A stretch of DNA of 64,000 nucleotides from Aphrocallistes beatrix (Eukaryota; Porifera; Hexactinellida; Sceptrulophora; Aphrocallistidae). How positions within the stretch are numbered: position 1 is the stretch's first letter; each line of letters opens with the position of its first letter. The stretch is taken from assembly GCA_963281255.1 (NCBI GenBank), contig OY725496.1:310001-374000 (forward strand). The letters are read 5' to 3'. The position numbers and the translations under genes are program-made. The notes beneath the pieces were generated by a model. That model did not search any database, was not told the DNA's origin, and saw nothing but the letters and a program-made list of their open reading frames with translations. Below, piece after piece: positions 17,782 to 55,627 of the stretch.

Positions 17782-20700
17782 TTATTTTTTATTCTTTTTA
17801 ACGGCACCAACATTACCATCAAATCTTACTTCAGACTTTGTTCTAGGAATGATTTTGGAATAATCATTCTCATTAAAACTAGTGTCATTTTCATAAATCT
17901 GTTCATTTCTTGTCGATACTAGATTATTAGATTTAACGTCACGAATAGTTTCATAAATTCTGAATTCAGCTTTTGATCCAGGAAAGGTTTTGGAACTATC
18001 ATCTTCTTGACTAAAACTAGTCTCATTTTCATAAATCGGTTCATTACCTGTCGATATCTTTACAGGACGTGGTAGTATTATTCGAGTTCTTTTCGGATCG
18101 TTCATTTGTTTTCTATACTTTATTATAAAGCAGACCAAGATAATGATAACAGATGTCTCGAGTATGGATATAGCGATAAAAAGTGTGGCAAGGATACCGA
18201 CAGAAGCAGCATAAGAACTCGATTGCGTTTGTCGCTCATTTATTTGAGAATTCAAATTTTCAATTGTACCGTTCGTACGTTCTGTAATGGCAAATGCTAT
18301 TTGTATGTTTTCTTCGTAATCCGCTTTTTCCTGTTCGAATTGTTTCCTAGCATTGTCGAGACTTAAGTTCATCTGTTTTAGGTGAATATTCAACACTTCT
18401 ATTTTTTCTCTGTATTCCACAATTTGTATCTTGAGTTCATTTTGGGAACTTTCAAAACTCGAGTTTTGTTCTATTGCTTGTGCTAACGAAGCTTCAAGTT
18501 GAATTTGACAATTGGAAATTCGTAGCTCATACTCTTTAGTTGATTTTATGTAACTAGAGTTACGTCTTTCGGCTTGGGCAATACAAGATTCCAGTTCACC
18601 TTGACAATTCGTTATTTGGCGCTCAAACATTTCTGTTGAATTTTCGAAGCTTGAATTTAGCTGTTTATTCTTTGCGATAGAAGCATCAAGTTGATTTTCA
18701 CAGCTCGTGATTTGTATTTCAAACATTTTTGTTGCATTATTCAAGCTGGAATTTAGGTTTTGGGCTCTGGAAAGTGAAGAAGCGAGTCTTTCTTTACAGT
18801 TCACAATTTGATCTTGCAACTCGTTAACAGCGATTTCAAAACTCGAGTTTTGTTTTTTCGTTTTTAAGTTTAAAATATTGATTTGCTCCTCCAAATCTTC
18901 AATTCTCATTTCAAATTCCTTTGTTGAATTCTCAAAACTTCGATTCAGTGAAGCTAATTTGACAATTGAAGTATCTAACTCGTTTTCACAGCTCTCGATT
19001 TGTCGCTCAAACTGCTCAGTTGAATTTTTGGCGCTTATTATTGAACGATTAAGTTTCTCTTCACAAATAGTAATTTCTTGTTCAAAGGTTTTGGTTGAAT
19101 TTTCAAAACTCGAGTTTAATTTTTCATTTATTGCAATTAAAATATCAATTCTCCCTTCATATATTCTGATACTTGATTCAAACATTTCTGTAGAATTCAT
19201 GAAACTTGAGTTTAGATTGTCAGCTCTTACAATTGAAGAATCGAGTTCAGTTTCACAACTCAAAATCCTGATTTCAAATGCTTCAATAGCATTTTCAAAA
19301 CTGGAATTTTGTTCCTTCGCTTTTGAGTTCAAAAACTTGACTTCCTGTTCTAGATTTTCAAGCATTGATTCAAAGGTTTTGGTTGAAATAATAAAACTTA
19401 AATTTTGTGCTGAAGCTGTGTCAATTGACTCATCCAATTTTCTTTGACAATTTTGAATTTGGGTTTCAAATTCAAATTTTGAATTTAAATAACTTGAATT
19501 CTGCTGGATAGCTTTTGAGACTGATTCATTTAGTCTGTCCATACAACTCACTATTTCAAGTTGGAAATTATCGCTAGCATTTGCAAAAATGGAGTTTAAA
19601 TTTTCTATTTGAGAGTTTGAATCGTTAAGTTGGGTTTCACAGATGCCAATTCGGTTTTCATATTCTGTTGTAGTGTTAAAGCAGGTAGAATTTTGGTGTA
19701 AAGCGCTTTTAATCGAAGAATCAAGTTGCATTTCGCAATTGCTTATCCTCGATTCTAGGAAATTCTTCGAAATATCAAAACTTGAGTTCTGTAGTTGAGC
19801 CATGAAAATTGACAAATTTAGTTTTTGGTCGCAACTACTAATTCTGAGTTCTAATTCCTTCTTGGAATGTTCGAAACTTAAATTTAGGTTACTGGCTTGT
19901 GAGATTGATGCATGAAGTTTTTCTTGACAGTTCAAAATTTGTTTTTCAAACTCTTCAGTAGAATTCCGAAAACTTGAGTTTCGTTCTTTTGCTTCTGAAT
20001 TTAATAGAATTATATTTTTTTCTAAACTTTCAATTTGGTTCTCGAAGATTTTGGTTGAATTTTCAAAACTTAAATTTTGCTCCTTAGCTTTTATTACTGC
20101 TGACTCAAATCTGTTCTCACAACTCGATATTTGAAAATTTAAATCCTGTATAGTATTTTCAAAGCTTGAATTTTGGTTCTTAAGTAGAGCAATTGTAGAA
20201 TTTAGTTCTCCTTCACAGCTCAAAATGGTTAGTTGAAATTCATTTGTAGAATTTTCGAGGCTATTTTGCTGTTCTGTTGCAATTGCAATTGAGGAATTTA
20301 GCTCGATTTGACAATGTGTCAACTGCGATTCAAATTGATTTTTAGAATTTTCAAAGCTTTCATTTTGTTCTTTAGCTTTTATAATTGATGAATTTACTCT
20401 TTCTTCACAATCCTTGATTTGCAGTTGATAGTCTCTCGTATCATTTTCAAAACTTGAATTCTGTATTTTTGCATTTCTAACCAACGAATCAAATTCGCTT
20501 TGACACCTAGCCATTTGTAGCTCAAATTCATTCCTCGAATGTTTTAGACTAGAATTTAGCTGTGTTACTTCTGTAATTAGTGTATAAATTCTTGCTTTAT
20601 TACTCTCTATCTCCTCTTCAAATTCTCTCCTAGCACTTTCAAAACTTGAATTCTGTTTCACTTCATTAGAGATTGAATCTTCGAGTTGGGCAATGCAGTT

Positions 20701-22635
20701 TCTAATTTGTACTTCCAATATCTTGGTTGAATTTTCAAAACTTGAATTTTGTTCATTTGCTTCATTAATTAAAAGATTTATTCTTTCGTAGTAATTTTCA
20801 ATTTGCATCTCGAGTTTTTCAGTTGAATTTTCGTAGCTTGAATTGAGTTCTTTGATCATTGCATTCAATAAACTAACCATTTCTTCGTATTTCACAAGTC
20901 TAAACTCAAATTCCTTTGAGACATTTTCAAAACTTGAATTTTGCTCATTTATCCTGATTATTGAATAACGAAGTTGACGGTCACAATTTTCAATTTTCGT
21001 TTCAAATTCCATTGTTGACTTTTCGAAACTTGAGTTCTGTTCTTTGATACTGGCATTTAACGCGCCAATTTGAATTTCACAATCGTTTAATTGTAATTCA
21101 AATTCCTTTGTTGAATTTTGAAAACTCTCGTTCAGTTTTTTGTTCTTAATGATGGAAGATTCCAATTTCTCTCGAATTATTTCAATTTCATCATTTTCCG
21201 TGCAATGTGTGAAGTTATATATTTTTTGAGTGGCATTACAATAGCACATATAAGATCCAATTGTATTACCGCAACCAGCTTGGCATCCACCATTGGCATT
21301 CTCGCACTCGTTAATATCTTCACAAGTGTGACCATTCGAGGCAAGTTGAAAACCGCTCTGACAAGCACACTGATAAGATCCTTCTGTATTTATACAAGAA
21401 TATTCACAATTATTTGCCACAGTACATTCATCAACATCTGTACATTCTCCCATACCACCCAAAGAATATCCATTTTTACATTCACAATTGTAGCTATCCT
21501 GTGTATTTTGGCAAATTTGTCCGGTAGGACATGTTATCGACTTGCTTAAGCAATGGTATGATTGTGTTTGCCTACAATTCGTGTAAAGAGAAAGACTATT
21601 GAGTTGATGATACAGCAGAGTTTCTAGATCTAAACATGTGCCCTGTATTTGAACACTTTGTTGAGCTAATAAGGGGATCCATTGTAGCGTACAATCACAT
21701 ATAAACGGATTTTCAATGTAGAGATAACTTAACTGTTTTAATTGCTGAAAGATGAAAGGTTCAAGTGTAGAATAGTTGTTATTTCTGATGTAGAGTGTCA
21801 CTAAATTTCTTGTTTCTAATAGAGTAGCTAATGGGAAATTTAAATTTCTGTCCAAGTGTAGAAAACTTAACCGAGACAAACCTTTGAAAATGTCAATGCT
21901 GATCGAGCTTATATGGTTGTAGTCTAAATACAGTCTTTCAAGCTTGGTTAGAGAATTGAAAGTGTTACTTTCAATTTCGTTAATTTTATTGTAGCCTAAA
22001 TCTAACAGTGTTAACTTTGGGAGGTGTTGAAAAGCGTTTTCTGATATTTTTACGAAGTTAGAACCGAGTAGCGATAGGTACACGAGATTTCTGAGTCCAT
22101 TAACAATTGTATGGTCTAAAATTGCTGTACCCAAAATCTGAATTTGTGCAGTGAGATATGTTAGATTTTGCAGATTAGTGAATGATGGTAACTTTTCTGT
22201 TTTGAGGTTTTGTAAGTATAAATATTTTAATCCAACGAAGTTGTTGAAAAAGTCCTCAGATTCAAGAAATACTTTAGATGTTCGAAAATAAGTGAGAGCA
22301 GTATTCTGTGCTGTAGTTTCAAGCGAGAAATAATCTCCATCAACATTATTCCTTAAATATAAATTTTTTATATTCGTTGGAAGATCGATATCAATAACAA
22401 GATTTTCAGTTTCGTTTGAAGCATACTGCTTATAGACATAGAGGCTAGTGAACCTGCTATGAAGTCCACTACATTGATTTAACAAACTTTTAATTTGTTC
22501 AGTTTTGTTATTCACGATATCACAAGATAGATAAGAACTGTAAGTACATGAACCTGCTCCATTATAGCAATCAATTGCAATGCCAAGACGAAAGAACTCT
22601 AACAAAATAATGAGAATAATGCAAAATGTATTCAT
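17782..22635 (-). CDS. Receptor B1: LRR-EGF-glycosylated coiled-coil membrane protein
   Basis: Family not recognised. Single-exon frame of 1617 residues. In order: signal peptide (1-20); Cys-rich N-cap; about eight LRRs (60-320) closed by an LRRCT cap (NPFICDCTLQW); three EGF domains (about 355-478), two with the DxDEC/DINEC calcium-binding start; then residues 502-1454 as about 30 copies of a 32-residue repeat of pattern NSSFENSTxxFExQIxxCxxxL; a membrane helix (about 1476-1504) followed by KYRKQ; and a 113-residue tail. Almost every repeat has an N-glycosylation site at position 1, often a second at position 6, and about two thirds have Cys at position 18. The tail has Y1535 and Y1581 in YEN(E/D), the YxN form bound by Grb2-type SH2 domains, and Y1561 in YETI. 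It lies head to head with A1. Surface location and signalling are inferred from architecture. Confidence 0.88.
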   Translation of the reverse strand: MNTFCIILIILLEFFRLGIAIDCYNGAGSCTYSSYLSCDIVNNKTEQIKSLLNQCSGLHSRFTSLYVYKQYASNETENLVIDIDLPTNIKNLYLRNNVDGDYFSLETTAQNTALTYFRTSKVFLESEDFFNNFVGLKYLYLQNLKTEKLPSFTNLQNLTYLTAQIQILGTAILDHTIVNGLRNLVYLSLLGSNFVKISENAFQHLPKLTLLDLGYNKINEIESNTFNSLTKLERLYLDYNHISSISIDIFKGLSRLSFLHLDRNLNFPLATLLETRNLVTLYIRNNNYSTLEPFIFQQLKQLSYLYIENPFICDCTLQWIPLLAQQSVQIQGTCLDLETLLYHQLNSLSLYTNCRQTQSYHCLSKSITCPTGQICQNTQDSYNCECKNGYSLGGMGECTDVDECTVANNCEYSCINTEGSYQCACQSGFQLASNGHTCEDINECENANGGCQAGCGNTIGSYMCYCNATQKIYNFTHCTENDEIEIIREKLESSIIKNKKLNESFQNSTKEFELQLNDCEIQIGALNASIKEQNSSFEKSTMEFETKIENCDRQLRYSIIRINEQNSSFENVSKEFEFRLVKYEEMVSLLNAMIKELNSSYENSTEKLEMQIENYYERINLLINEANEQNSSFENSTKILEVQIRNCIAQLEDSISNEVKQNSSFESARREFEEEIESNKARIYTLITEVTQLNSSLKHSRNEFELQMARCQSEFDSLVRNAKIQNSSFENDTRDYQLQIKDCEERVNSSIIKAKEQNESFENSKNQFESQLTHCQIELNSSIAIATEQQNSLENSTNEFQLTILSCEGELNSTIALLKNQNSSFENTIQDLNFQISSCENRFESAVIKAKEQNLSFENSTKIFENQIESLEKNIILLNSEAKERNSSFRNSTEEFEKQILNCQEKLHASISQASNLNLSFEHSKKELELRISSCDQKLNLSIFMAQLQNSSFDISKNFLESRISNCEMQLDSSIKSALHQNSTCFNTTTEYENRIGICETQLNDSNSQIENLNSIFANASDNFQLEIVSCMDRLNESVSKAIQQNSSYLNSKFEFETQIQNCQRKLDESIDTASAQNLSFIISTKTFESMLENLEQEVKFLNSKAKEQNSSFENAIEAFEIRILSCETELDSSIVRADNLNSSFMNSTEMFESSIRIYEGRIDILIAINEKLNSSFENSTKTFEQEITICEEKLNRSIISAKNSTEQFERQIESCENELDTSIVKLASLNRSFENSTKEFEMRIEDLEEQINILNLKTKKQNSSFEIAVNELQDQIVNCKERLASSLSRAQNLNSSLNNATKMFEIQITSCENQLDASIAKNKQLNSSFENSTEMFERQITNCQGELESCIAQAERRNSSYIKSTKEYELRISNCQIQLEASLAQAIEQNSSFESSQNELKIQIVEYREKIEVLNIHLKQMNLSLDNARKQFEQEKADYEENIQIAFAITERTNGTIENLNSQINERQTQSSSYAASVGILATLFIAISILETSVIIILVCFIIKYRKQMNDPKRTRIILPRPVKISTGNEPIYENETSFSQEDDSSKTFPGSKAEFRIYETIRDVKSNNLVSTRNEQIYENDTSFNENDYSKIIPRTKSEVRFDGNVGAVKKNKK
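18274..21132 (-). repeat. About 30 tandem 32-codon repeats in B1
   Basis: The period is 96 bp. Thirty-two residues fit three heptads plus one hendecad, compatible with a continuous coiled coil. Two repeat classes are visible: a common class with Cys at position 18, and a class with Tyr/Leu there followed by a LLN or LN segment. One pair is shortened (the segment IISAKNSTEQFE lacks the usual junction). Confidence 0.85.
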
Positions 22636-24517
22636 AGCAATTGATTTTTTTGTACTTAGTATTAAGGATAAAGTGAGAAGTTTTATTTATTTTAATTAAT
22701 ATACTACACTATATGATATGAAATACGGATATGATGTATTGTTATATTACGTGTGTTTAGAGTAAAATCAAAAGTAAGATATCGAGTGTTAGCAAGCTTG
22801 GATTACTCTAGTTATCCAATACAACACTCCAGGTAAAGTTTATTATGCTAGAATAGATTATTCAATGATGACTTGAACTATCATACATTTCTTTATAATT
22901 TGTTAAATCATGTTGAGTAAAGAAGTAAAAGGAGATGATGTATAGCCATTTGGAAGGTGACTTTTTGAAAAGAATACTTTTGATACTCAGAATAAAAGAA
23001 TGACTATCAATTGTAAATGTCTAAAATATTATGTAAGGTAGATTATACATAATTACAAGAGCGTACACTCGAGATGAGGATTGGAAGGACTTTTGGGCTA
23101 TGATTCAGGATTGGCAGGGTCATTTTGGATAAATCGTATTCTGTCTAATAGCAGATAATAGACTTCGACAATTTTTTGGAAAGGCTTTAGCCCTACTAAT
23201 CCTACAGAGCCTACACCTATCATAATTACCAACAAAATGTCCATCGTATTTTGTGGATAAACCTCTGTAAACATTGCTTTATTAGTAGTGACTCCAATAC
23301 AAAAGAAATTTTGTCCGAATTTTTTTAAGTCTTTTTATCACCTAGTGTCCTAGACCTTTAAAAATCAATTGAACAAAAAGAACTACTTCAACTGTATACG
23401 ATATTTAATTTTAATCTGATTAGCTTGAACAAATTGTATAGCAAAACCAGCTGCAATTTAATATTCTTTATGATAACTTTCTAATTAATTCAAGATTTTT
23501 CATTGTGCCAAACTTACATAATGACAAAAAATACGATGAGATAGTAATCTGATATTACATGTGTTTCAATCATGTGTTCTAACCAAGATTTTGTTCTATT
23601 TCCCACGTATTTATTAATATTCATTCATTTGGGTTAATTTGCCACTGTGCCAAGCTATTTTCGTATCTGTGCAGATGTTGGTGACAACTGGCAATTGCTA
23701 GAAATATAACCAGGTGTATAGGAGAGTAATATTATACGCATATCATAATAAATAATAATTTCTAGGTCTCGACTCGATTTTAAGTGCCACTCGTATTATA
23801 GGAGACGCCTTATATCATAAATAGTGTGTAACGTAAGCATACTTGCAAACTGTCCGTTTTTTGCGGGACATTCCGCTTTCTTCACTCTTCTATTGAGCTA
23901 ATTCTCAGTGTCCCGCTTTACATGAAATTTCTCCATTATGTCCCGCTTTTTCTCACTTTTATCATTGCACAAGTTAGCATGTAACTTAAGTAAAGCATTA
24001 AGCGCTCCTCAAAATTAGGAGTGCACTCTCGCTCTGTGCTCTTTACTTATAATTGTAGCGCGCTCCTCCATACTCTCCTTTAAAATACTTATCGAAAAAT
24101 TTGTTCTGAAATTTTTGGGTTACACAATGAATACATATATGATTTCAATGATGACTTAAAATAACAAACATTTCTTTACACTTTGTTAAATTATTTTGGA
24201 TGTAGAAGTGATGAGGAGAATACATTTGATACTCTTACAATAAGAATTGCTATCAATTAGAAGCGTCTAAAAGGTTCTGAGATACGACATTTAATATTTA
24301 AATACTATAATTAATTTGAAAGAATTGCATAGCAAAGCCATCTGTAATATAATATTCATCTTGACTCGTAGTTCTAATTTTGCTCTGTGCCAAACAACAT
24401 AATGACATGAAATACAAAGAGATAGTTGGATGATATTGATTGTAATTTGATCATGTCTCGAACCAAGATTTTCAAATTTGTGGTGAGTTTGCACATTAAA
24501 TAACTAGCTGCTAGAAG
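22636..24517. promoter_or_regulatory. B1/A1 divergent intergenic region
   Basis: About 1.9 kb between two start codons pointing away from each other, so both promoters must lie here. Most of it is duplicated: inverted at 28985-30215, and direct at 32760-33338/33936-34300, 43650-44265 and 50192-51660. A GGGACA-family MITE (23840-23976) is inserted. Other regulatory motifs are not identifiable by eye. Confidence 0.6.
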
Positions 24518-24526
24518 TATAAAAGG
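24518..24526 (+). promoter_or_regulatory. A1 TATA box
   Basis: TATAAAAGG, 82 bp before the A1 ATG, in the block GCTGCTAGAAGTATAAAAGG conserved before all four A genes. Confidence 0.7.
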
Positions 24527-24599: not shown

Positions 24600-27491
24600 A
24601 TGGTAAGGTATTTTCTACTTTCACTATTGTTTTGTACTTATATTTTTGCCTCATTGGCAGAAATGGTTTGCAGTGGTTCATCAATTGAATGTACTGACAC
24701 ACGATCTGAATATGCTACCGATGGTGATGACTGTAGCTCCTCAGCTAATCTATTTTGTTACATTTTAAATGACAACACTCAACTCATTAAAAGCCAGCTG
24801 AAAGATTGCAGTTCAAGTTCAAATAGTTTTACTCAGATGTGTCTGGTTAAAAGTTATACTTCCACCATGGTTGGTAATCTAATCATTGATGTTGATTTGC
24901 CAACAAATATTATAGGAATGATCGTTATCAATGCAATAGACCAAGATTATTTTAGGATTACAACCTCTGCTGAGAATTCTTTCCTCACTTCTTTATCGTT
25001 CTATGCAAGTATAAGTATTTTTGATAATGAAACCATTTTCAATTTTTTTGTCAATTTGAGATCACTTAATATTCTTGGTAATGTCATCTCAGATGAAATT
25101 CCATCCTTCACAAATTTACATTCTTTAACATATCTATCCAGTGGATTTCAAGCGTCTGGAACCCCAAGGTTAGATAGTAGTATGGTTAGTGGGCTAGAAA
25201 ATCTCGTTTTTTTGTACATAAGGAATTCTAATTTTCAAGAAATCAATCTAGATGCTTTTCAAAATCTTAATGCTTTAACGTTTTTGACTATCTATAGTAG
25301 TCCATTTTTAACTCTTCAAAACGGTGTATTTGACTCCCTCACCAGGCTTGTGATCCTACAATTAGGATCAACTAGTATTAGTCATGTAGGTAATTCGGTT
25401 TTTGAGGCTTTGAATCAATTGAAATATTTTGCTTTGTATGATAGTCCAAATTTCCCGCTAGAAAGTCTTGCATATGCAAGAGGTTTGGAGGGTTTGATTC
25501 TCGGTTATGGCTCTTATTCTACTCTTGATCCCTTTCTGTTTCAACAACTGATTAGTTTAACATATTTGCACATTAATGACAATCCAATTTTATGTGATTG
25601 CAATCTAGAATGGATTCCCAACTTGGCACAGCAAGGAGTCAATATTCTAGGGTCATGTTCATTTCCTATTAGTGCTCAAGGAATTAGTATTTCTAATTCA
25701 TTACTCTATATTAACTGTTCTCAAACAGAATCTTATCAGTGTTTCAACAGATCTATTACTTGTCCAAGTAATGAGTTTTGCCATAATACAGGTGATTGTT
25801 ACACTTGTGGTTGCATTCCTGGCTATGTCCGTTTAAATACAGGAGAATGTTTAGATGATAATGAATGCTCTAGACCCAATAAGTGTCAGTATTCCTGTAC
25901 AAACACAGATGGATCTTACTACTGCAACTGTAGTGAAGGGTTTCAAATATCCACTAATGGTTACAGTTGTGAGGATATTAATGAATGCCAAGTTGCGAAT
26001 GGAGGTTGTGAAGGTATATGCAACAATACAGTTGGATCTTATTCTTGCGATTTCAGTTATAGAATTAATAGCACAACGAATTTTTCTGTTCTGATTTATA
26101 AAATTTCGCTCTCAGGCGTTATACTCATTGGAGTAATAGCAGCTGGAGCGATCATTAGCACTATGATCGTTTATATTATCGCCCTTAAAATGAAAATAAC
26201 CAAGTTGAATAAAAAAGAAAGTAATCATGAAGAAAGTACTTATGAAGAAATAGGTCCCCATGATGGCATGCAGGTGCAAAATAATATTAGAAATGATCCA
26301 AATCAATCAGAATTGCACAATCCATTATTTGAAATACATACTAACCCAACGGTTTCTCAAGAAGACTCAAAACAATCTGACACAAAAGCCGCTGAGTCAG
26401 GACATATTTTAGGGAGAAAAATTCATATTGACAGCAAGAGAGGAAAATTCGGCGATTATTATGAACAAGTAGAGATGGAAATTGAATATAGTAGTTTGTC
26501 TGTTCCATACGAAGCTATTTCAAATGAAGAGCAAGCTGAACCTTCAGATATTACTGTAACTGAAAGAGAATATAATTCACGAATCGAATATTTGGTTGTT
26601 AATGACACAGATAAAATGGACAAACTTTATGAACAGGTGGGGGTATATAGCAGTTTGCCTACTGCTTACGAAGCTATTTCAAATGAAGAACACACAAAAC
26701 CATCTGATATTACAGAAACTGAAAGAGAACATAATTCACGAAGCGAATTTTTTGTCGGTTATGACACACATAAAATGGGCAAACATTATCGACAAGTAGA
26801 GATGGAATACAGCAGTTTACCGGTTTCATGCGAAGCAATTTCAAATGAAGAACACCGAAAACGTTCTGATATTACAGAAACAGGAGTAGGACTTGATTCA
26901 CGAAGCGAACTTTTAGTTAATGGTGATAAAGAAAAAATGGACAAACTTTATGAACAAGTGGGGGTGGAATACAGCAGTTTGCCAGCTCCATACGAATCTA
27001 TTTCAAATGAAGAACACAGAAAACGTTCTGATATTGCAGCAACTGAAAGAGAACATAATTCACGATGCGAATTTTTCATTGGTGGTGATAAAGAAAAAAT
27101 GGACAAACTTTATGAACAGGTGGGGGTGGAATACAGCAGTTTGCCTGCTCCATACGAATCTATTTCAAATGAAGAACACAGAAAACGTTCTGATGTAACA
27201 GAAACTGGAGTAGGACATGATTCACAAAGCGAATTTTTAGTTAATGGTGTTAAAGAAAAAATGGACAAACATTATGAACAGGTGGGGGAGGAATACAGCA
27301 GTTTGCCTGCTCCATACGAAGCTATTTCAAATGAAGAACACAGAAAACGTTCTGATATTGCAGAAACTGGAGTAGGAGATGATTTACAGAGCGAATTTTT
27401 CGTTGATAGCGATAAAGAAAAAATGACCAAACTTTATGAACAAGTAGACCCGGAATACAGCAGTTTGCCTGTTCCGATTCCTGAAAACTAA
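24600..27491 (+). CDS. Receptor A1: LRR-EGF membrane protein with long tyrosine-module tail
   Basis: Not a named family that I recognise. Single-exon frame of 963 residues from the ATG at 24600; an in-frame TTG nine bases upstream is not a plausible start. In order: signal peptide (1-20), Cys-rich N-cap, about seven LRRs, LRRCT (NPILCDCNLEWIP), one atypical and two calcium-binding-type EGF domains (the last short), membrane helix at about 503-529 with KMKITK stop-transfer, then a 430-residue tail. The tail has a juxtamembrane STYEEI, an HNPLFEI motif, and from about residue 620 six and a half modules of 54 residues patterned YEQVGVEYSSLPAPYEAIS. By eye there are about 20 YxxL/I/V motifs; module 3 has Cys instead of the third Tyr. 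Several match ITIM-type (V/S)xYxx(L/I) and YxxPhi endocytic signals. Phosphotyrosine signalling is inference. Confidence 0.88.
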   Translation: MVRYFLLSLLFCTYIFASLAEMVCSGSSIECTDTRSEYATDGDDCSSSANLFCYILNDNTQLIKSQLKDCSSSSNSFTQMCLVKSYTSTMVGNLIIDVDLPTNIIGMIVINAIDQDYFRITTSAENSFLTSLSFYASISIFDNETIFNFFVNLRSLNILGNVISDEIPSFTNLHSLTYLSSGFQASGTPRLDSSMVSGLENLVFLYIRNSNFQEINLDAFQNLNALTFLTIYSSPFLTLQNGVFDSLTRLVILQLGSTSISHVGNSVFEALNQLKYFALYDSPNFPLESLAYARGLEGLILGYGSYSTLDPFLFQQLISLTYLHINDNPILCDCNLEWIPNLAQQGVNILGSCSFPISAQGISISNSLLYINCSQTESYQCFNRSITCPSNEFCHNTGDCYTCGCIPGYVRLNTGECLDDNECSRPNKCQYSCTNTDGSYYCNCSEGFQISTNGYSCEDINECQVANGGCEGICNNTVGSYSCDFSYRINSTTNFSVLIYKISLSGVILIGVIAAGAIISTMIVYIIALKMKITKLNKKESNHEESTYEEIGPHDGMQVQNNIRNDPNQSELHNPLFEIHTNPTVSQEDSKQSDTKAAESGHILGRKIHIDSKRGKFGDYYEQVEMEIEYSSLSVPYEAISNEEQAEPSDITVTEREYNSRIEYLVVNDTDKMDKLYEQVGVYSSLPTAYEAISNEEHTKPSDITETEREHNSRSEFFVGYDTHKMGKHYRQVEMEYSSLPVSCEAISNEEHRKRSDITETGVGLDSRSELLVNGDKEKMDKLYEQVGVEYSSLPAPYESISNEEHRKRSDIAATEREHNSRCEFFIGGDKEKMDKLYEQVGVEYSSLPAPYESISNEEHRKRSDVTETGVGHDSQSEFLVNGVKEKMDKHYEQVGEEYSSLPAPYEAISNEEHRKRSDIAETGVGDDLQSEFFVDSDKEKMTKLYEQVDPEYSSLPVPIPEN
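26460..27488 (+). repeat. A1 tail: 6.5 tandem 54-codon tyrosine modules
   Basis: Period 162 bp (first unit 168 bp). Modules 4 and 5 are almost identical over their first half, pointing to recent unequal exchange. Each module has YEQV, YSSL and YE(A/S)I separated by three residues, then an acidic/basic spacer rich in SNEEHRKRSD. Confidence 0.85.
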
Positions 27492-27865: not shown

Positions 27866-27996
27866 AAATTTGTTTGAGCTAATATGGGGATCCATTGTAA
27901 CATACAATCACTTATAAACAGATTTTCAATGTAGAGATACCTTAACTGTTTTAATTGCTGAAAAATAAAAGGTTCAAGTGTAGAATCGTTAATATC
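27866..27996 (-). pseudogene. Scrap of a type-B receptor (last LRR and LRRCT)
   Basis: The minus-strand reading matches B1 around STLEPFIFQQLKQL and IENLFISDC, including QWIPILAQ. It is about 130 bp, carries a Pro-to-Leu change in ENPF and a Cys-to-Ser change in the cap, and has no start or downstream domains. Confidence 0.75.
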
Positions 27997-30215: not shown

Positions 30216-30221
30216 TAAACG

Positions 30222-32700: not shown

Positions 32701-32759
32701 AAAAAAAAAACGATATTAAGAAAAACCCGTTTCGCGTGTTTGAAGATAGACGAGAGACT

Positions 32760-42768: not shown

Positions 42769-42779
42769 ATGTCATAGAT

Positions 42780-44265: not shown

Positions 44266-44269
44266 GCAT

Positions 44270-44713: not shown

Positions 44714-46061
44714 CAGGGTGTATCATAAGTGTTGTCGGGTAGTAGAATTGTCAAAGTAGTCATACTATTGTATTATAACCACAAGTAGTTTTCATTTATT
44801 AGTTCAGTATTGCTTAGTATCCCGTTGCACTTTGTAGAAAATTACTTAATCTATTTCTAGCTAAACTGAAATTCCAGAATTTTTACTATCGTTGTCAACC
44901 TGTTATTTCCAGGAAAATGAATGTCCGAGATCATGGTTTAGAGCTCCTTACGCAGGCCATTGGGATGTTGAATGCAGGAATGACTCAGAAGGATGTTGCA
45001 TTAAAGCTCCGAGTTAGTTTGAGATCAATCGAACGTTGGTGGAACAAAGAGAAACTTGGAGAATCTCAAAAGACCAAAAGTCGCCCCGTACGAAATTCAA
45101 CTGTTAAAAAGGCCGCCAAAATTATGATTTCGAAATCTCTCGGTAAGAGAGGAAAATCTACTAGGAAACTGGCAAGAATAGTGAGTAATAGGGGATATCC
45201 TATATCCCATTCAACTGTTTACCGATATCTCAGGGATAGCTTAGGAGTGAGATCCTTTAAATGGCCAAAAATCCCGCGATTGACTGCGAAAATGAAGGAA
45301 AACCGTCTAAAATTTGCTGAATTTCGCAAAGAATGGACTGTTGAGGATTGGAAACGCGTTTTGTGGTCTGACGAAGCACCCTTTCAATTGTTCAATACCC
45401 CAAATAGACAAAATGATCGTGTTTGGGCTCGGATTTCAGCTGAGGTTGAGCCTTGTGTTCAAGTCAAATTTCCTGGAAAAATTAACGTCTGGGGCATGAT
45501 GTCACATCGTGCAGTATCTGAGTTGCATATTGTTCCGCAAAAACAGACGATAAATGGTTGTTACTACCGAAACTATATTCTGGAAAAGACCTGTAAAGAT
45601 GCCATTGAACGTAGGTCGGATTATGGTTCAATAATGGAGAAGTCAATGCTCTCAAACATGTCGAATTTTATTTTCATGCAGGATGGTGCCCCAGCACACA
45701 CAGCAAATTTGACTCAAGTCTGGTGTGCAGAGCATTTCCCAGGGTTTTGGCGTAAAGGGGAGTGGCCAGGCAACTCACCGGATCTCAATCCTATCGAGAA
45801 TCTATGGTCGATTTTGAAGGATAGTGTCAGTCAAATGGAGAATGTCACTAAAATCGAAGACCTGATTTTTCAAGTAAAAAAGGCCTGGGCAAGCATTGAC
45901 CCGAATATCTTGGAAAATCTAGTCGCCAGTATGCCTGATCGTGTTAAATCAGTAATAGATAGTCGAGGAGATTACATAAATAAGTGAAAATATATACATG
46001 ATATACATTCTGGGTTTTTACATTCAATTATATTACCCGACAACACTTATGATACACCCTG
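44714..46061 (+). mobile_element. Intact Tc1/mariner-type DD37E transposon
   Basis: A 1348-bp element with perfect 28-bp inverted ends (44714-44741 and 46034-46061, beginning CAGGGTGTATCATAAGTG), flanked by TA on both sides. One uninterrupted transposase gene is inside. Perfect ends and an intact frame point to a recent, possibly active insertion. Confidence 0.95.
44917..45987 (+). CDS. Tc1/mariner transposase, DD37E type
   Basis: 356 residues, full length for the superfamily. N-terminal helix-turn-helix DNA-binding region (about 1-110, with DVALKLRVSLRSIERWW). The catalytic triad is D in LWSDEAPF, D in FMQDGAPAHT and E in PDLNPIENLW. Counting gives 37 residues between the second D and the E, the spacing of DD37E Tc1-like elements rather than the usual DD34E. 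It cuts and pastes DNA at TA sites. No stop or frameshift is present. Confidence 0.93.
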   Translation: MNVRDHGLELLTQAIGMLNAGMTQKDVALKLRVSLRSIERWWNKEKLGESQKTKSRPVRNSTVKKAAKIMISKSLGKRGKSTRKLARIVSNRGYPISHSTVYRYLRDSLGVRSFKWPKIPRLTAKMKENRLKFAEFRKEWTVEDWKRVLWSDEAPFQLFNTPNRQNDRVWARISAEVEPCVQVKFPGKINVWGMMSHRAVSELHIVPQKQTINGCYYRNYILEKTCKDAIERRSDYGSIMEKSMLSNMSNFIFMQDGAPAHTANLTQVWCAEHFPGFWRKGEWPGNSPDLNPIENLWSILKDSVSQMENVTKIEDLIFQVKKAWASIDPNILENLVASMPDRVKSVIDSRGDYINK

Positions 46062-46388: not shown

Positions 46389-48425
46389 ATGGTAAGGTAT
46401 ATTCTACTTTCACTATTGTTTTGTACTTGTATTTTTGCCTCGTTGGCAGAAATGGTTTGCAGTAGTTCATCAATTGAATGCACTGATACACGATCTGAAT
46501 ACGCTAAGGATGGTGGTTACTGTAGCTACTCAACTAATCTATTTTGTTATATTTTAAATGACAACACTCAACTCATTAAAAGCCAGTTGAAAGATTGCAG
46601 TTCAAGTTCAAGTAGTTTTACTCAGATGTGTCTGGTTAAAAATTATACCTCCACCATGGATGGTAATCTAATCATTGATGTTGATTTACCTGCAAATATT
46701 ATGGGAATGCGTGTTATCAATGCTATAGACCAAGATTATTTTAGGATTACTACTTCTGCTGAGAATTCTTTCCTCATTTCCTTATCATTCAAAGGAAATG
46801 TAAATATTGAAAATGAAACCATTTTCAATTTTTTTGTCAATTTAAGATCTCTTAATTTTCGTGATCATATCATCTCAGATAAAACTCCGTCCTTCACAAA
46901 TTTACATTTTTTAACATCTCTATCAGGTGGTTTTAAAGTCTCTGGAAACACGAAGTTAGACAGTAGTATGGTCAGTGGACTAGAAAATCTGATATTTTTG
47001 CATATACAAAGTTCTAATTTTCAAGAAATAACTCTGAATGCTTTTCAAAATCTTAATAATCTGACAGATTTGGTTATCTTGCATAGTCCTTTAAATCAGA
47101 TTCAAAACAGTTTATTTGATTCCCTCACCAAGCTGAAGTATCTACAATTAGGATCAACTAGCATTAGTCATGTCGGCAATTCTGTTTTTAAGGCTTTGAA
47201 TCAACTTGAGGCTTTTGTTTTGTATGATAGTCAAAACTTCCCGTTAGAAAGTATTGCTTATGCAAGAGGGTTAAAGCGTTTGTATCTCATTGCTACCTAT
47301 TATTCTACTCTTGATCCCTTTCTGTTTCAACAACTCAAAAATTTAACGAATTTGTACATTAGTTCCAATCCAATTTTATGTGATTGCAATCTAGAATGGA
47401 TTCCCAAATTAGCACAGCAAGGAGTCGAGATTGAAGGGTCATGTTCATTTCCCATTAGTGCTCAAGGAATTAGTATTTCCAATTCATCACTCTATAGTAA
47501 TTGTCCTCAAACAGAGTATTATAAGTGTTTCGACAAATCAATTACTTGTCCAAATGATGAGTTTTGCTATAATACAGGTGATGATTACAATTGTAGTTGC
47601 ATTCCTGGCTATGTCCGTTTAAATACAGGAGAATGTGTAGATGATAATGAATGCTCTAGACCCAATCAGTGTGAGCATTCCTGTGCAAACACGGATGGAT
47701 CTTACTACTGCAACTGTAATGAAGGGTTTCGGAAATCCGCTAATGATAGTTGTGAAGATATTAATGAGTGCCAAACTGCGAATGGTGGGTGTGAAGGTAT
47801 ATGCAACAATACATTTGGATCTTTTTATTGCGAGTTCGATAATATAATTTATGAAACAACGAATTGTTCTTTTGCAAATCAGTTTGAGATTCTTATATCT
47901 TCGATCGCTGGCGTTATATTCATTGGAATAGCAGTAGCTGGAGTGATATTTGGCACTTTGATTGCTTATATTATCGCTCATAAAATGAAAACGACCAAAT
48001 TGAAGAAAAGAGAAAGTAATCATGAAGAAAATAATTATAAAGAAATAGGTCCTCATGGAGGCATGCAGATGCAAAATAATAGAAATGATCCAAATCAATC
48101 AAATTTGCATAATCCATTATTTGAAATAAATGCTAACCCAACGGTTACTCAAGAAGACTCAAAACAATCTGACACAAAAGTCACTGAGTCAGGACATAAT
48201 TTAGGGAGAAAAATTCATATTGACAACGAGACAGGAAAATTCGGCGATTATAATAAACAAGTCGAGATGAAATATAGCAGTTTTCCTGCTCCATATGAAG
48301 GTACAAGTTTTTCAAATGAAGAACACACAAAACCTCCTGATATTGCAGAAACTAGAGTAGGACATGATTCAGAATGCGAATTTTTCGTTGATAGTGATAA
48401 AGAAAAAATGGTCAAACTTTGTTAA
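46389..48425 (+). CDS. Receptor A3: LRR-EGF membrane protein with degenerate tail
   Basis: Single-exon paralogue closest to A1, 678 residues from the ATG at 46389. Signal peptide, LRRs, LRRCT (NPILCDCNLEWIP), three EGF domains (the last short, as in A1) and a membrane helix near 505-528 are intact. The tail has only one 54-residue module, in which the motifs read YNKQ, YSSF and YEGT instead of YEQV, YSSL and YEAI; the juxtamembrane site is YKEI. The frame ends at TGT-TAA where the others read TAT-GAA (Tyr-Glu). The sequence beyond still aligns to the last half-module up to the family's usual stop at 48474-48476, and its second Tyr is also Cys. The gene is probably losing its signalling tail; expression is unknown. 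Confidence 0.82.
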   Translation: MVRYILLSLLFCTCIFASLAEMVCSSSSIECTDTRSEYAKDGGYCSYSTNLFCYILNDNTQLIKSQLKDCSSSSSSFTQMCLVKNYTSTMDGNLIIDVDLPANIMGMRVINAIDQDYFRITTSAENSFLISLSFKGNVNIENETIFNFFVNLRSLNFRDHIISDKTPSFTNLHFLTSLSGGFKVSGNTKLDSSMVSGLENLIFLHIQSSNFQEITLNAFQNLNNLTDLVILHSPLNQIQNSLFDSLTKLKYLQLGSTSISHVGNSVFKALNQLEAFVLYDSQNFPLESIAYARGLKRLYLIATYYSTLDPFLFQQLKNLTNLYISSNPILCDCNLEWIPKLAQQGVEIEGSCSFPISAQGISISNSSLYSNCPQTEYYKCFDKSITCPNDEFCYNTGDDYNCSCIPGYVRLNTGECVDDNECSRPNQCEHSCANTDGSYYCNCNEGFRKSANDSCEDINECQTANGGCEGICNNTFGSFYCEFDNIIYETTNCSFANQFEILISSIAGVIFIGIAVAGVIFGTLIAYIIAHKMKTTKLKKRESNHEENNYKEIGPHGGMQMQNNRNDPNQSNLHNPLFEINANPTVTQEDSKQSDTKVTESGHNLGRKIHIDNETGKFGDYNKQVEMKYSSFPAPYEGTSFSNEEHTKPPDIAETRVGHDSECEFFVDSDKEKMVKLC

Positions 48426-49189: not shown

Positions 49190-50191
49190 TCAGCTAGCAA
49201 ACTTGATAAATAAGGTCAGACAAAAGATATACATACATTGGAATGTAATAGCACATATAAACGGATTTTCAATGTAGAGATACCTTAACTGTTTTAATTG
49301 CTGAAAGATGAAAGGTTCAAGTGTAGAATAGTTGTTATTTCTGATGTAGAGTGTCACTAAATTTCTTGTTTCTAATAGAGTACCCAATGGGAAATTTAAA
49401 TTTCTGTCCAAGTGTAGAAAACTTAACCGAGACAAACCTTTGAAAATGTCAATGCTGATCGAGCTTATATGGTTGTAATCTAAATACAGTCTTTCAAGCT
49501 TGGTTAGAGAACTGAAAGTGTTACTTTCAATTTCGCTAATTTTATTGTAGCCTAAGTCTAACAGTGTCAACATTGAGAGGTGTTGAAAAGCGTTTTCTGA
49601 TATTTTTACAAAGTTAGAACCGAGCAGCGATAGGTACACGAGATTTCTGAGTCCATTAACAATTGTATGGTCTAAAATTGCTGTACCCAAAATCTGAATT
49701 TGTGCAGTGAGATATGTTAGATTTTGCAGATTAGTGAATGATGGTAACTTTTCTGTTTTGAGGTTTTGTAAGTATAAATATTTTAATCCAACGAAGTTGT
49801 TGAAAAAGTCCTCAGATTCAAGAAATACTTTAGATGTTCGAAAATAGGTGAGAGCAGTATTCTGTGCTGTAGTTTCAAGCGCGAAATAGTCTCCATCAAC
49901 ATTATTCCTTAAATACAGTTCTTTTAAATTCGTTGGAAGATCGATATCGATAACAAGATTTTCAGTTTCGTTTGAAGGATACTGCTTATAGACATAGAGG
50001 GTAGTGAACCTGCTATGAAGTCCACTACATTGATTTAACAGACTTTTAATTTGTTCAGTTTTGTTATTCACGATATCACAAGATAGATAAGAACTGTAAG
50101 TACATGAACCTGCTCCATTATAGCAATCAATTGCAATGCCAAGATAAAGGAACTCCAGCAAAATAATGAGAATAATGCAAAATGTATTCAT
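49190..50191 (-). CDS. Receptor B2: truncated LRR-only copy of B1
   Basis: 333 residues, open from its ATG. Over the first ~318 residues it differs from B1 at about 13 positions by eye: signal peptide, N-cap and all LRRs are kept. At ENPFIC in the LRRCT cap the match to B1 stops abruptly and about 15 unrelated residues lead to a stop. EGF, coiled-coil, membrane and tail parts are missing. The 5' flank matches that of B1, so its promoter may be intact. It is either a pseudogene or a secreted LRR protein. It stands head to head with A4. Confidence 0.75.
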   Translation of the reverse strand: MNTFCIILIILLEFLYLGIAIDCYNGAGSCTYSSYLSCDIVNNKTEQIKSLLNQCSGLHSRFTTLYVYKQYPSNETENLVIDIDLPTNLKELYLRNNVDGDYFALETTAQNTALTYFRTSKVFLESEDFFNNFVGLKYLYLQNLKTEKLPSFTNLQNLTYLTAQIQILGTAILDHTIVNGLRNLVYLSLLGSNFVKISENAFQHLSMLTLLDLGYNKISEIESNTFSSLTKLERLYLDYNHISSISIDIFKGLSRLSFLHLDRNLNFPLGTLLETRNLVTLYIRNNNYSTLEPFIFQQLKQLRYLYIENPFICAITFQCMYIFCLTLFIKFAS

Positions 50192-51660
50192 AGCAATAGA
50201 TTTTTTGTATTAAGGATAAAGTGAAGTTTTATTTATTCTAATTAATATACTACACTATATGATATGAAATACGGATATGATGTATTGTTATATTACGTGT
50301 GTCTAGAGTAAAATCAAAAGTAAGATATCCAGTGTTAGCATGCTTGGATTACTCTAGTTATCCAATACAACACTCCAGGTAAAGTTTATTATGCTAGAAT
50401 AGATTATTCAATGATGACTTGAAATCATACATTTCTTTATAATTTGTTAAATCATGTTGCGTAAAGAAGTAAAAGGAGATGATGTATAGCCATTTGGAAG
50501 GTGACTTTTTGAAAATAACACATTTGATACTAGGAATAATAAGAATGGCTATCAATTGTAAATGTCTAAAAGATTCTGTAAGGTAGATTATACATAATTA
50601 CAAGGGCGTACACTCGAGATGAGGATTAGAAGGACTTTTGGGCTATGAATCAGGATTGGCGGGGCCATTTTTGACATCGCATTCTGGATAATAGAAGATA
50701 ATATACTTCGATAAATTATTGGTAAAGCTATAGCCCTACTAATCCCACCTGATCCTATACCTATGATAATTATCAGCAGAATGTTCATCGTTATTTGTCG
50801 ACAAACAAACTTTTGTTTTATTATTAGTAGTAATTCCAATACAAAATATTTTTTGTCCAAAAATGACTACTTCGACTGTATACGATTCAATTATTTACAA
50901 TTTGAATAATGTTAACGAACTGTACAGCAAAACCAGCTGTAACTTAATATTCTTAATGATAACCTTCTAATTAATTTAAGATTTTCCACTGTGCCGAATT
51001 TGCATAATTGCAAGAAATACGAGGAGATAGTGATCTGTTTTTGCATGTGTTTCAATCATGTGTTCTAACCAATATTTTGCTCTATTTTCCACGTGCTCAT
51101 TAATATTCTTTCATTTAGGTTAATTTGCACTGTGCTACGCTATTAACGTGTCTGCACAGATGTTGGGAACAACTCACAATTGCTAGAACTATAACCAGAT
51201 GTATAGGAGAGTAATATTATACGCATATCATATTAAACAATAAGTTCTAGGTCTGGACTTGATTTTCAGTGCCGTTCGTATTATAGGAGATGTATAGCAT
51301 AAATAGCATGTAACGTAAGCAAAACATTAAGCGCTCCTCAAATTAGGAGTGCACTCCTGCTCAAAATGCGCTCCTTACCTATAATTGCTGCGCGCTCCTC
51401 CATACTCTCCTTCAAAATACTTTTCGATAATTTGTTTCCGAAAATAATGGGTCATACAATGAATATATGATTTCAAAGATGGCTTGAACAATCATACATT
51501 TCTTTACGCTTGTTAAATCATGTAGAGTAAAGAAGTAATGAGAAGATGATGTATGTATACCCACTTGGAAGGTGACTTTTGAATCGAATATATTTGAAAC
51601 TCAGAATAATAAAAAATGCTATCATTTATAAACGTCTAAAAGGTTCTGAGATATTAGAAA
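50192..51660. promoter_or_regulatory. B2/A4 intergenic region, B-proximal part
   Basis: Co-linear with 22636-24080 (for example TACACTATATGATATGAAAT just outside both B start codons), including GGAGTGCACTCCTGCTC-type sequence near 51345. It should hold the B2 promoter. Confidence 0.65.
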
Positions 51661-53316: not shown

Positions 53317-53389
53317 ACGCTATAAGCAACTCAATTATTTCTTTTCATCTTATTGTTAAAACTGTTAACATTAAATCGCATTACTGAAG

Positions 53390-55627
53390 ATGGTAAGGTA
53401 TTTTCTACTTTCACTATTGTTTTGTACATATATTTTTGCCTCATTGGCAGAAATGGTTTGCAATAGTTCATCAATTGAATGTACTGACACAAGATCCGGA
53501 TACGGTACTGATTATTTCTGTAGCTCCTCAGCTAATCTATTTTGTTATATTTTAAATGACAACACTCAACTCATCAAAAGTCAGCTGAAAAATTGCAGTT
53601 TAAGTTCAAATAGTTTTACTCAGATATGTCTGTTTAAAAATATTACCGGTAATGTAATCATTGATCTCGATTTACCGGAAAATATTGTAAAGATGAGTTT
53701 TATCAATACTTTAGACGGAAGTGCTTTTGGGATTACTACTTCTGTTGGGAATTCTTTCCTCACTTCTTTATTATTCCGTGGAGATGTAAATATTGAAAAT
53801 GAAACCATTTTCATTTTTTTTGTCAATTTAAGGTTACTTTATGTACAAGGTGATATGTTCTCAAATGAAATTCCGTCCTTCACAAATCTACATTTTTTAA
53901 CACATCTGCACAGTGGATTTCAAGTGTCTGGAACCACAAAGTTAGACAGTAGTATGGTTGGTGGACTAGAAAATCTCGTTAATTTGGGCATATGGAGTTC
54001 TAATTTTCACGAAATCAAACTAGATGCTTTTCAAAATCTCATTAATTTGAGAGATTTGGCTATCACTTATAATCCCGCATTAACTCAAATTCAAAACGGT
54101 GCATTTGACTCCCTCACCAAGCTAACACGTCTAAATTTAGGATCAACTAGTATTAGACCTGTAGGCAATTCTCTTCTTAAGCCTTTGACTCAATTGGAGG
54201 ATTTATCTTTGTATAATAGTCCAAGTTTCCCGTTAGAAGGTCTAATTTATTTGCGTGGCTTGAAGAGGTTGTCTCTCGGTTATGGCTCTCATTCTACTCT
54301 TGATTCCTTTCTCTTTCAACAACTAAATAGTTTAACATACTTGAGCCTTTTTTCCAATCCAATTGTATGTAATTGCAATCTAGAATGGATTCCCAAATTG
54401 GAACAACAAGGAGTCACGATTGTAGGGACATGTTCATTTCCCATTAGTGCTCAAGGAACTAGCATTACCAATTCATCGCTCTATACTAATTGTCCTCAAA
54501 CAGAGTCTTATAAGTGTTTTGACAGATCTATTACTTGTCCAGATAATGAGTTTTGCTATAATACAGGTGAAGATTACAATTGTGGTTGTGCTCCTGGCTA
54601 TGTCCCTTCAAATACTAGTACAGGAGGATGTATAGATGAAGATGAATGCTCTACACCCAAAATGTGTGAGTATTCCTGCACAAACACAGATGGCTCTTAC
54701 TACTGTAACTGTAGTGAAGGGTTTAAAATATCCGCTAATGGTTACAGTTGTGAGGATATGAATGAATGCCAAGCTGAGAACGGTGATTGTGAAGCTATAT
54801 GCAACAATACAGTTGGATCTTACTCCTGCAACTGTAGCGAAGGGTTTCAAATATCCGCTAATGGTTCTAGTTGTGAAGATATTAATGAATGTCGAGATGC
54901 AGATGGCGGTTGTGAAGGTGGATGCAAAAATACAGTTGGGTCTTTTAAATGTTATTGCAAGTTCGGTTATAGAATTTATGACGAAACGAAATGTTCAGTT
55001 ATCAATGAGTTTGAGATTCTTAAAATTTCGATCGCAGGCGTTATAACTATTGGAATAACAGTAGCTGGAGTGATATTTGGCACTTTTATCGTTTATATTA
55101 TCGCTCTTAAAATGAAAATGACTAAATTGAAAGAAAAAGAAAGTATTTATGAAGCAATACATCCTTATGGTGACATGCAGATGCAAATTAATCTTCGAAA
55201 TGACCCAAATCAATCAAAATTGAATAATCCATTAATTGAAATACATTCTAACCCAACGGCTACTCAAGAATACTTTTCACACGAAGCTATATGTATTTCA
55301 AATGAAAAACACGCAAAACCATCTGATATTGCAGCAACTGAAGTAAGACATAGTAATTCACAAATTGAATTTTTCGTTAATGGTGATGAAGAAAAAAGGT
55401 GTAAACTTTATGAACAGGTGGGGGTGGAATACAGCAGTTTGCATGTTCCATACGAAGCTATTTCAAATGAAGAACAAACTAAACGTTCTGATATTGCAGC
55501 AACTGAAGTAGGACCTAATTTACGAAGTGAACTTTTCATTGGTGGTGATAAGGTGAAAATGGGCAAACTTTACGAACAAGTCGACCCGGAATACAGCAGT
55601 TTGTCTGTTCCGATTCCTGAAAGCTAA
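53390..55627 (+). CDS. Receptor A4: LRR-EGF membrane protein with short tyrosine tail
   Basis: Single-exon paralogue, 745 residues, closest to A2. Signal peptide, Cys-rich N-cap, LRRs and LRRCT (NPIVCNCNLEWIP). Four EGF domains: an atypical one with an inserted NTSTGG, then DECSTPKMCEYSC, NECQAENGDCEAIC and NECRDADGGCEGGC. Membrane helix near 549-572, tail about 170 residues. The juxtamembrane site reads IYEAIHPYGDM. The first module has lost its YEQV/YSSL part (YFSHEAICIS remains), followed by one full and one half module. About six YxxL/I/V motifs are left. It pairs with truncated B2. Confidence 0.87.
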   Translation: MVRYFLLSLLFCTYIFASLAEMVCNSSSIECTDTRSGYGTDYFCSSSANLFCYILNDNTQLIKSQLKNCSLSSNSFTQICLFKNITGNVIIDLDLPENIVKMSFINTLDGSAFGITTSVGNSFLTSLLFRGDVNIENETIFIFFVNLRLLYVQGDMFSNEIPSFTNLHFLTHLHSGFQVSGTTKLDSSMVGGLENLVNLGIWSSNFHEIKLDAFQNLINLRDLAITYNPALTQIQNGAFDSLTKLTRLNLGSTSIRPVGNSLLKPLTQLEDLSLYNSPSFPLEGLIYLRGLKRLSLGYGSHSTLDSFLFQQLNSLTYLSLFSNPIVCNCNLEWIPKLEQQGVTIVGTCSFPISAQGTSITNSSLYTNCPQTESYKCFDRSITCPDNEFCYNTGEDYNCGCAPGYVPSNTSTGGCIDEDECSTPKMCEYSCTNTDGSYYCNCSEGFKISANGYSCEDMNECQAENGDCEAICNNTVGSYSCNCSEGFQISANGSSCEDINECRDADGGCEGGCKNTVGSFKCYCKFGYRIYDETKCSVINEFEILKISIAGVITIGITVAGVIFGTFIVYIIALKMKMTKLKEKESIYEAIHPYGDMQMQINLRNDPNQSKLNNPLIEIHSNPTATQEYFSHEAICISNEKHAKPSDIAATEVRHSNSQIEFFVNGDEEKRCKLYEQVGVEYSSLHVPYEAISNEEQTKRSDIAATEVGPNLRSELFIGGDKVKMGKLYEQVDPEYSSLSVPIPES

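Follow-up and report, generated by a model that had tools for sequence, protein, structure and literature searches.

A cluster of leucine-rich repeat (LRR) and epidermal growth factor (EGF) receptor genes in the glass sponge Aphrocallistes beatrix shows strong signs of diversification at the predicted concave surface of its LRR domains. The cluster lies in a window of 64 kb (the whole stretch of DNA analysed here, C10:310001-374000, from a genome of 100.5 Mb in 28 contigs), and contains four genes on the plus strand, A1 to A4, along with relatives on the minus strand, B1 and B2. We consider it fairly probable that the A genes encode recognition receptors diversified in the germline, that these signal by way of phosphotyrosine motifs, and that they have a conserved, long-stalked partner, B, which has often been lost. 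The genes and gene fragments are the following.

24600..27491, plus strand: A1, 963 amino acids, LRR-EGF-transmembrane (TM); the tail has six copies of a 162-bp (54-amino-acid) repeat
35391..38291, plus strand: A2, 966 amino acids, with an enlarged EGF array and about three tail repeats
46389..48425, plus strand: A3, 678 amino acids, with decayed tail motifs and a premature stop
53390..55627, plus strand: A4, 745 amino acids, LRR-EGF-TM, with about two tail repeats
17782..22635, minus strand: B1 (ATG at 22635), 1617 amino acids, with LRR, EGF-type domains, a stalk of 31 repeats of 32 amino acids, a TM-like segment, and a 112-amino-acid tail
49190..50191, minus strand: B2 (ATG at 50191), 333 amino acids, B1-like up to about residue 319 and then with an unrelated hydrophobic end
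27869..27990, minus strand: B scrap, 122 bp, 92% identical to the B1 coding sequence

All six genes are uninterrupted, single-exon open reading frames (ORFs). A Pfam scan identified LRR_8 and EGF_CA/cEGF in A1-A4 and B1, and LRR families only in B2; A1-A4 and B1 each have one TM-like segment, preceding the tail. The stop codon of A3 comes ahead of the final tail repeat. B2 is 95% identical to B1, with homology ending at 49233, and its exit from this homology (49190-49240) runs into the short hydrophobic end, making a small membrane-attached LRR protein conceivable. The scrap at 27.87 kb was considered as a remnant of A and rejected on its identity to B1 DNA. A first-pass annotation of this DNA had assigned unequal fates to the two partners, with A kept four times and B whole, truncated, and reduced to a scrap once each, and both the ORFs and the DNA alignment agree with it. 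Ku80 (13299-15560) is also one open frame, of 753 amino acids, so the single-exon state of A and B is not special here; it hints that many genes of this genome may have a single exon.

Evidence for surface diversification comes from the following part of A1 and its counterparts in the other A genes.

24978..25598, plus strand: A1 LRR stretch tested, residues 127-333

In an AlphaFold2 model of A1 residues 1-533 (pLDDT 82.5, pTM 0.74, 23 rows), each of the nine repeats used (LxxLxLxxN, where L1 is the first residue) has a strand that begins at L1+2. The concave face was defined as positions +2, +4, +6, and +7, fixed ahead of counting. Among A1-A4, 31 of the 36 predicted concave positions are variable, compared with 69 of 171 other LRR positions (Fisher p 3.4e-7), and the predicted phase is the highest of 24 phase shifts (0.86, the next being 0.75). 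Removing the conserved L/N scaffold from the comparison gives p 3.8e-6, and the effect persists when any one of the four genes is left out and within each of the two sister pairs, as it does under a narrower mask (weakest p 0.012). A variable face could be mere tolerance, and a comparison with synonymous change was therefore made. Pooled over A1-A4, the ratio of nonsynonymous to synonymous differences (pN/pS) reaches 1.91 for concave codons, against 0.53 for the other LRR codons and 0.64 outside the LRR. Pooling reuses sequences; in disjoint pairs, computed as well, the ratio of concave pN to LRR-wide synonymous change is 1.74, 1.77, and 1.85 (bootstrap 95% 1.25-2.47, 1.32-2.39, and 1.36-2.53). 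The observed concave pN was not attained by any of 5000 random 36-site sets, and concave nonsynonymous against concave synonymous change, for A1-A3 plus A2-A4, gives p 0.021. Signs of rapid evolution of the LRR surface, which the first-pass annotation had proposed looking for, are strong in A1-A4. The same peak phase occurs, at the level of protein only, in seven proteins of the hexactinellid Oopsacas minuta (23/32 compared with 59/160, p 3.5e-4; P0010 and P0049 omitted) and in a trio of ENA proteins, P0114/P0160/P0129 (28/36 compared with 62/170, p 6e-6; other ENA proteins omitted).

The second property of the A proteins concerns their tails, which are rich in tyrosines within YxxPhi motifs.

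26172..27488, plus strand: A1 cytoplasmic tail, with 21 of 24 tyrosines in YxxPhi

The corresponding counts are 12 of 14 in A2, 7 of 8 in A4, 2 of 5 in A3, and 2 of 4 in B1. A1 has six of the tail repeats, A2 about three, and A4 two, and in A3 they have decayed; their motifs are YEQV-YSSL-YEAI, and one 18-mer tail peptide reads YEQVGVEYSSLPAPYEAI. The consensus of the immunoreceptor tyrosine-based inhibitory motif, taken as [SIVL]xYxx[LVI], occurs at six A1 tail tyrosines. The B1 tail has YENE/YETI/YEND/YSKI. Cytoplasmic YxxPhi is not universal in the family, several relatives having none, and some relatives' tails end in YxN-type motifs (YENL, YANL, YVNL), which are closer to SH2 sites.

A further feature of B1 is its stalk.

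18226..21195, minus strand: B1 stalk, residues 481-1470, 31 repeats of 32 amino acids

Its self-identity is 0.33 at a lag of 32 residues, compared with 0.04-0.12 at other lags from 26 to 39, and its 990 residues include no proline and six glycines. Hydrophobicity has periods of 3.56 and 2.29 (32/9 and 32/14); of the 31 repeats, 22 have a sequon asparagine at one register and 17 have a cysteine at another. These properties fit an uninterrupted long helix, which may be a coiled coil linked by disulphides; the predicted rod would measure about 148 nm (990 residues × 0.15 nm). An NCBIfam scan of the stalk gave just weak coiled-coil matches, far below cut-off. The A genes have neither stalk nor stalk stub. 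Three internal repeats have grown in different members of one cluster: the EGF array in A2, the extracellular stalk in B1, and the tyrosine tail in A1. The LRR heads of B1 and B2 differ little, there being 14 residue differences between the proteins, none of them at 33 concave sites (about 1.6 expected, which is not significant), and a dN/dS of 0.33.

Several observations weigh against A as diversified, signalling receptors. There are just four A genes, of which A3 looks damaged; the ratios come from counting methods (NG86) rather than codon-model likelihood, and conversion can distort them. The ENA trio could come from the same species as A1-A4, and conservation between B1 and B2 rests on one pair. 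Seven genes of a related cluster on contig C8 have 18/36 variable positions at the face and 55/173 elsewhere (p 0.054). Their pN/pS is 0.75 for face codons and 0.28 for the remainder, and variability is highest at phases -5 and -3 rather than at 0. In the tails, a tyrosine spacing of 7, 7, and 40 fits no canonical immunoreceptor tyrosine-based activation motif (ITAM), clathrin-adaptor sorting signals have YxxPhi as their consensus too, and outside A the residue at Y-1 is hydrophobic as often (39%) as that at Y+3. The C8 cluster was considered as a second case of diversification and rejected on its pN/pS and off-phase peaks; its constraint indicates that diversification is not a rule of the family.

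Two other functions could be proposed from the same data. These proteins may be adhesion or matrix receptors, in which the LRR-EGF head would bind matrix or a partner membrane and divergence would reflect relaxed constraint after duplication. The nearest solved folds, which include LRRTM2, chondroadherin, FLRT, and the Nogo receptor, are in line with this, as are the constraint on the C8 cluster and the decay of A3, and a long sequon-rich stalk along with arrays of calcium-binding EGF domains would be suitable. However, pN/pS under relaxed constraint would not exceed 1, whereas values of 1.7-1.9 are observed and are confined to one face, and change is concentrated on the concave face in three of the four paralogue sets tested; we regard an adhesive function as unlikely. 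Endocytic or scavenger receptors, in which the YxxPhi repeats would act as AP-2 sorting signals that internalize bound particles without phosphotyrosine signalling, seem less likely still. YxxPhi fits the mu2 consensus and ITAM spacing is lacking, but tandem triplets are unusual for a sorting signal and the YxN-type tail ends of some relatives are nearer to SH2 sites. Uptake by an LRR protein has a precedent in amphioxus, where FrLRR is reported to promote bacterial uptake with the involvement of Grb2 (PMC10199209); this protein may also be an analogue of the kind of function proposed here for A.

Recognition receptors of this type would belong to a wider family. A and B had been described as two distantly related families, and this description has to be revised: their ectodomains are 40-45% identical and, judged by sequence, they are two branches of one glass-sponge family of single-exon LRR-EGF receptors. 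A protein search with A1, which depends on shared 5-residue words, gave named matches covering more than 20% of A1 in Oopsacas minuta alone; none of the named proteins from other animals or organisms reached that coverage. This search gave no sign of a one-to-one orthologue of a conserved, single-copy developmental receptor, one of the two findings that the first-pass annotation had said would refute it. The Oopsacas proteins P0005-P0007, P0010-P0013, and P0103 are annotated as ‘Fibrillin-2/3-like’, EGF-like, or hypothetical, and five of those listed come from a contig of equal length (278,206). They have the same ectodomain order as A and B (LRR, then EGF, then TM-like) and are 39-47% identical to A1 or B1 (42-45% to A1 in the protein search, and 46% to B1 for P0103), with P0049 at 28-30%. 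They differ from A and B in mostly longer EGF arrays and short tails (YQIN, YQTL, YETL, YMSM), and neither the 32-amino-acid stalk nor the 54-amino-acid tail repeat was seen in the Oopsacas sequences read.

A family alignment has 36 invariant columns in 23 rows, and a tree was made from 29 rows, including nine from Oopsacas. A1-A4 join with P0008, a gene of the same genome (C10:397058-399133), at 100/99 support, and B1 joins with B2 (100/100); forks between A, B, and the remaining groups are unsupported. Seven of the nine Oopsacas rows form one clade (100/99), with P0010 outside it; Oopsacas P0049 groups with A. beatrix genes of C12 and C13 (99/97), and the unnamed P0213 with the A. beatrix C8 genes (100/100). 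The long branches of P0035 and of two genes at C10:96-102 kb are unsurely placed. Groupings of mixed species indicate older subfamilies common to the species, with A1-A4, B1-B2, and the main Oopsacas group as separate, later expansions. P0008, sister to A1-A4, has the LRR-EGF-TM order and a tyrosine tail without tail repeats; by reading, one to two repeats of the B-type stalk form a short stub between its EGF and TM parts, and it looks intermediate between A and B. A database search with the LRR part of P0008 missed clear Oopsacas relatives, and absence there is weak evidence.

At least 29 ORFs in the genome have both LRR and EGF matches. This number comprises 20 hand-matched ORFs with LRR_8 and EGF_CA (from the best 150 of 415 and of 655 candidates) and nine scanned directly (A1, A3, A4, and six others), with the TM segment forming no part of the definition; in the ORF at C10:100053, EGF_CA is below cut-off and cEGF above it. 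Such genes lie in several tandem clusters (C8, C12, and two on C13), mostly in one direction per cluster. The C8 cluster (C8:4530732-4562471) has seven LRR-EGF genes of 684-1020 amino acids, under stronger constraint, and by eye two NHL-repeat-like ORFs lie between or beside them (C8:4558384-4559658, minus; C8:4564128-4565381, plus). A dense cluster of LRR ORFs of about 420-510 amino acids is present at C15:3708001-3748000, with signal-peptide-like starts that contain runs of cysteine (for example, LLLCCCCCC); the two members scanned had LRR matches and no EGF_CA match.

Known receptor systems share some of these features. Toll-like receptors (TLRs) have an LRR solenoid in common with A and B, but the Pfam scan found no TIR domain in either, and the genome gave no match to TIR (PF01582) in a search that did not extend to TIR_2 (PF13676). 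Nor did the scan find in A or B the NACHT domain that characterizes NOD-like receptors (NLRs); across the genome NACHT matches number 94, mainly within uninterrupted frames of about 1,100-1,200 amino acids, and thus this animal is not without NACHT proteins. The variable lymphocyte receptors (VLRs) of jawless fish have an LRR solenoid with variability on the concave face, as in A, where it lies between paralogues and is not somatic. A VLR germline gene is incomplete and assembled somatically from cassettes, whereas A and B1 are complete open frames; VLR chains match by sequence, and none is among the 50 structural-alignment rows listed. LRRTM, FLRT, LINGO, and Nogo-receptor proteins have 15-22% identity over the LRR part alone (model residues 29-420 at most), with the EGF array and tail outside the comparison. 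Fibrillin is a secreted matrix protein with TB (PF00683) domains, and no PF00683 match was found in A or B by the scan, while A1-A4 and B1 have their TM-like segment. Vasorin combines LRR, EGF, and TM with a fibronectin III domain between EGF and TM and a short tail; the scan gave no FN3 match in A or B. The earlier statement that the architecture matches no receptor family that can be named therefore holds in that no clear match to any of the families tested was found, and needs amendment in that homologues exist in Oopsacas and among unnamed ENA proteins.

Published work on sponges is relevant in this respect. PMC12909245 reports that sponges lack canonical LRR-TIR receptors, that the genomes of sponges it studied gave no LRRCT domain, and that A. 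vastus, another glass sponge, yielded no bona fide NLR. The genome papers of Oopsacas and A. vastus (PMC10280926 and PMC10282587) do not contain ‘LRR’ in their main texts. Also missing from the main text of PMC10280926 are ‘leucine’, ‘Toll’, and ‘allorecognition’; in PMC10282587, ‘leucine’ occurs in a reference only, and AIG1 genes are described that lie in tandem and mostly have one exon. In the titles and abstract openings covered by literature searches, the LRR-EGF family was not found.

The history of the cluster can be followed in the sequence between B and A, an intergenic block of about 1.2 kb that occurs at five places in the cluster, one of them inverted and two partial.

22660..23837, plus strand: B1-A1 intergenic block (unit 1), nearly confined to the cluster
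29026..30217, minus strand: inverted intergenic block, 84% identical to the B1-A1 block
32784-33326, plus strand: partial intergenic block upstream of A2 (unit 2), from alignment
32403..33339, plus strand: partial block plus the B-less left flank common with unit 3, from alignment
43657..44273, plus strand: partial intergenic block upstream of A3 (unit 3), from alignment
50159..51321, plus strand: intergenic block of unit 4, between B2 and A4, 83% identical
23838..23951, plus strand: dispersed element of about 115 bp in the intergenic region, from genome search

Alignment of the five copies upholds the claim that shared intergenic sequence lies upstream of all four A genes and once in inverted form. 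A genome search with the block gave one stretch of 96 bp outside the cluster (query 367-463, 80%, C10:3155843-3155938), and the adjoining element at 23838-23951 has at least 33 copies elsewhere; the best 40 of 1044 candidates were scored, and weak dispersed matches may escape. With dispersal limited to the 115-bp part and, weakly, one 96-bp stretch, the homology is not solely due to dispersed repeats, an objection that had been anticipated. The B scrap sits on the A side of the inverted block and thus is not its B partner; it is also the sole match to A or B coding sequence beside this block at E<=1e-3. At its B-side edge (30211-30246), a 12-residue A-type EGF-like match has E 0.033 and could be chance.

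Divergent head-to-head pairs are observed for B1-A1 and B2-A4, units 1 and 4 retaining both partners, and the alignments indicate at least one duplication of the whole B-intergenic-A unit. To this extent the view of the pair as the duplicated unit stands; it does not cover the whole history, in which groupings of genes and flanks are discordant. The tree joins A2 with A4 (100/100) and A1 with A3 (95/78), and the 3′ flanks of A2 and A4 are 94% identical over 386 bp. To the left of the blocks in units 2 and 3, where B is expected, the same dispersed elements follow in the same order (85% over 359 bp) and, by reading, the end of a gypsy ORF is in common; a single loss of B, followed by copying of the unit that lacked it, is probable. 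Synonymous divergence is 0.07 for B1/B2, far below the 0.27 for A1/A4. These lines of evidence disagree and suggest exchange between units, most simply through conversion or through unequal crossing over. In five of the six A pairs identity is 71-91% in LRR windows and 87-96% in windows from -88 and -28; A2-A4 has 86-96% in the LRR, and all A pairs farther upstream (-200) have 52-87%. This dip in the LRR is compatible with selection on it, and also with uneven conversion.

The pair as a functional unit is plausible. It may instead be incidental, B being a decaying neighbour without functional link in a gene-dense genome, which we judge to be only a little short of an even prospect; this concerns the pairing alone and is compatible with A as a recognition receptor. 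Each A has its own TATAAAA, three of the five intergenic copies have no adjoining B, and units 2 and 3 share one B-less flank. Against this, at least one duplication included both partners (83-84% identity across 1.2 kb), and a second LRR-EGF head-to-head pair lies about 230 kb away (C10:96362-98119, minus; C10:100053-102011, plus), with first ATGs about 2.1 kb apart and members very unlike each other and A/B.

Promoter signals and mobile elements around the genes are as follows.

24518..24524, plus strand: TATAAAA, 82 bp upstream of the A1 ATG
31679..31936, plus strand: gypsy-type ORF remnant upstream of A2, by reading, its C-terminal segment the same as in 42274-42777
about 40217..42777, plus strand: gypsy-type remnants upstream of A3, from ORF reading and one rve match below cut-off
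44818..45987, plus strand: Tc1/mariner-like transposase ORF between the unit-3 block and A3, an open frame

TATAAAA is also present before A2 (35310), A3 (46307), and A4 (53308), at -81 or -82. A compact bidirectional promoter was considered, but these signals and the 1,964 bp between the start codons of A1 and B1 give no grounds for proposing a single shared one; the core promoter of B was not assessed. Units 1, 2, and 4 carry two copies of a segment close to the A promoter, through an internal direct duplication in the intergenic region (23396-23592 and 24282-24472, 72%). A 20-bp motif within this duplication occurs twice in these units (one with five mismatches), and once each in unit 3 and the inverted block; at up to four mismatches it was not found in 20 other loci examined, and at five about one chance match is expected per window strand. 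The gypsy remnants reported upstream of A2 and A3 are borne out by the readings above. Elsewhere in the window, an inverted repeat at 57132-58117 has arms of 474 nt, 88% complementary, with 38 nt between them, and a 22-bp unit forms a tandem array at 63591-63854 (TTGTGTTTTTATATATACGAAA).

A mechanism can be proposed in which tandem duplication and exchange between units would generate copies of A, and positive selection would alter residues of the concave LRR face, the usual ligand side of LRR proteins. With the predicted membrane topology, binding of a presumed ligand would cluster A, tyrosine kinases would phosphorylate the repeated YxxPhi motifs of the tail, and the phosphorylated tails would recruit SH2 proteins, the number of tail repeats setting the strength of the signal. 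B, with a more conserved LRR head on its predicted helical rod and a short tail with other motifs, may be a long-reach co-receptor or a sensor of a conserved ligand, possibly expressed with A and dispensable in most units. A may have an immune or self-recognition role, towards which the pattern of selection on the concave face points indirectly.

Extracellular LRR recognition is central to TLR, VLR, and plant surface immunity. It is a rather doubtful idea that glass sponges, without LRR-TIR receptors, evolved their own germline-diversified LRR recognition system, pairing a hypervariable A head on a tunable phosphotyrosine tail with a conserved B head on a rod of about 150 nm, in which haplotype-variable pairs would mark individual identity or microbes in largely syncytial tissue. 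An LRR-EGF family with selection on the concave face would provide a testable recognition candidate at the base of animals.

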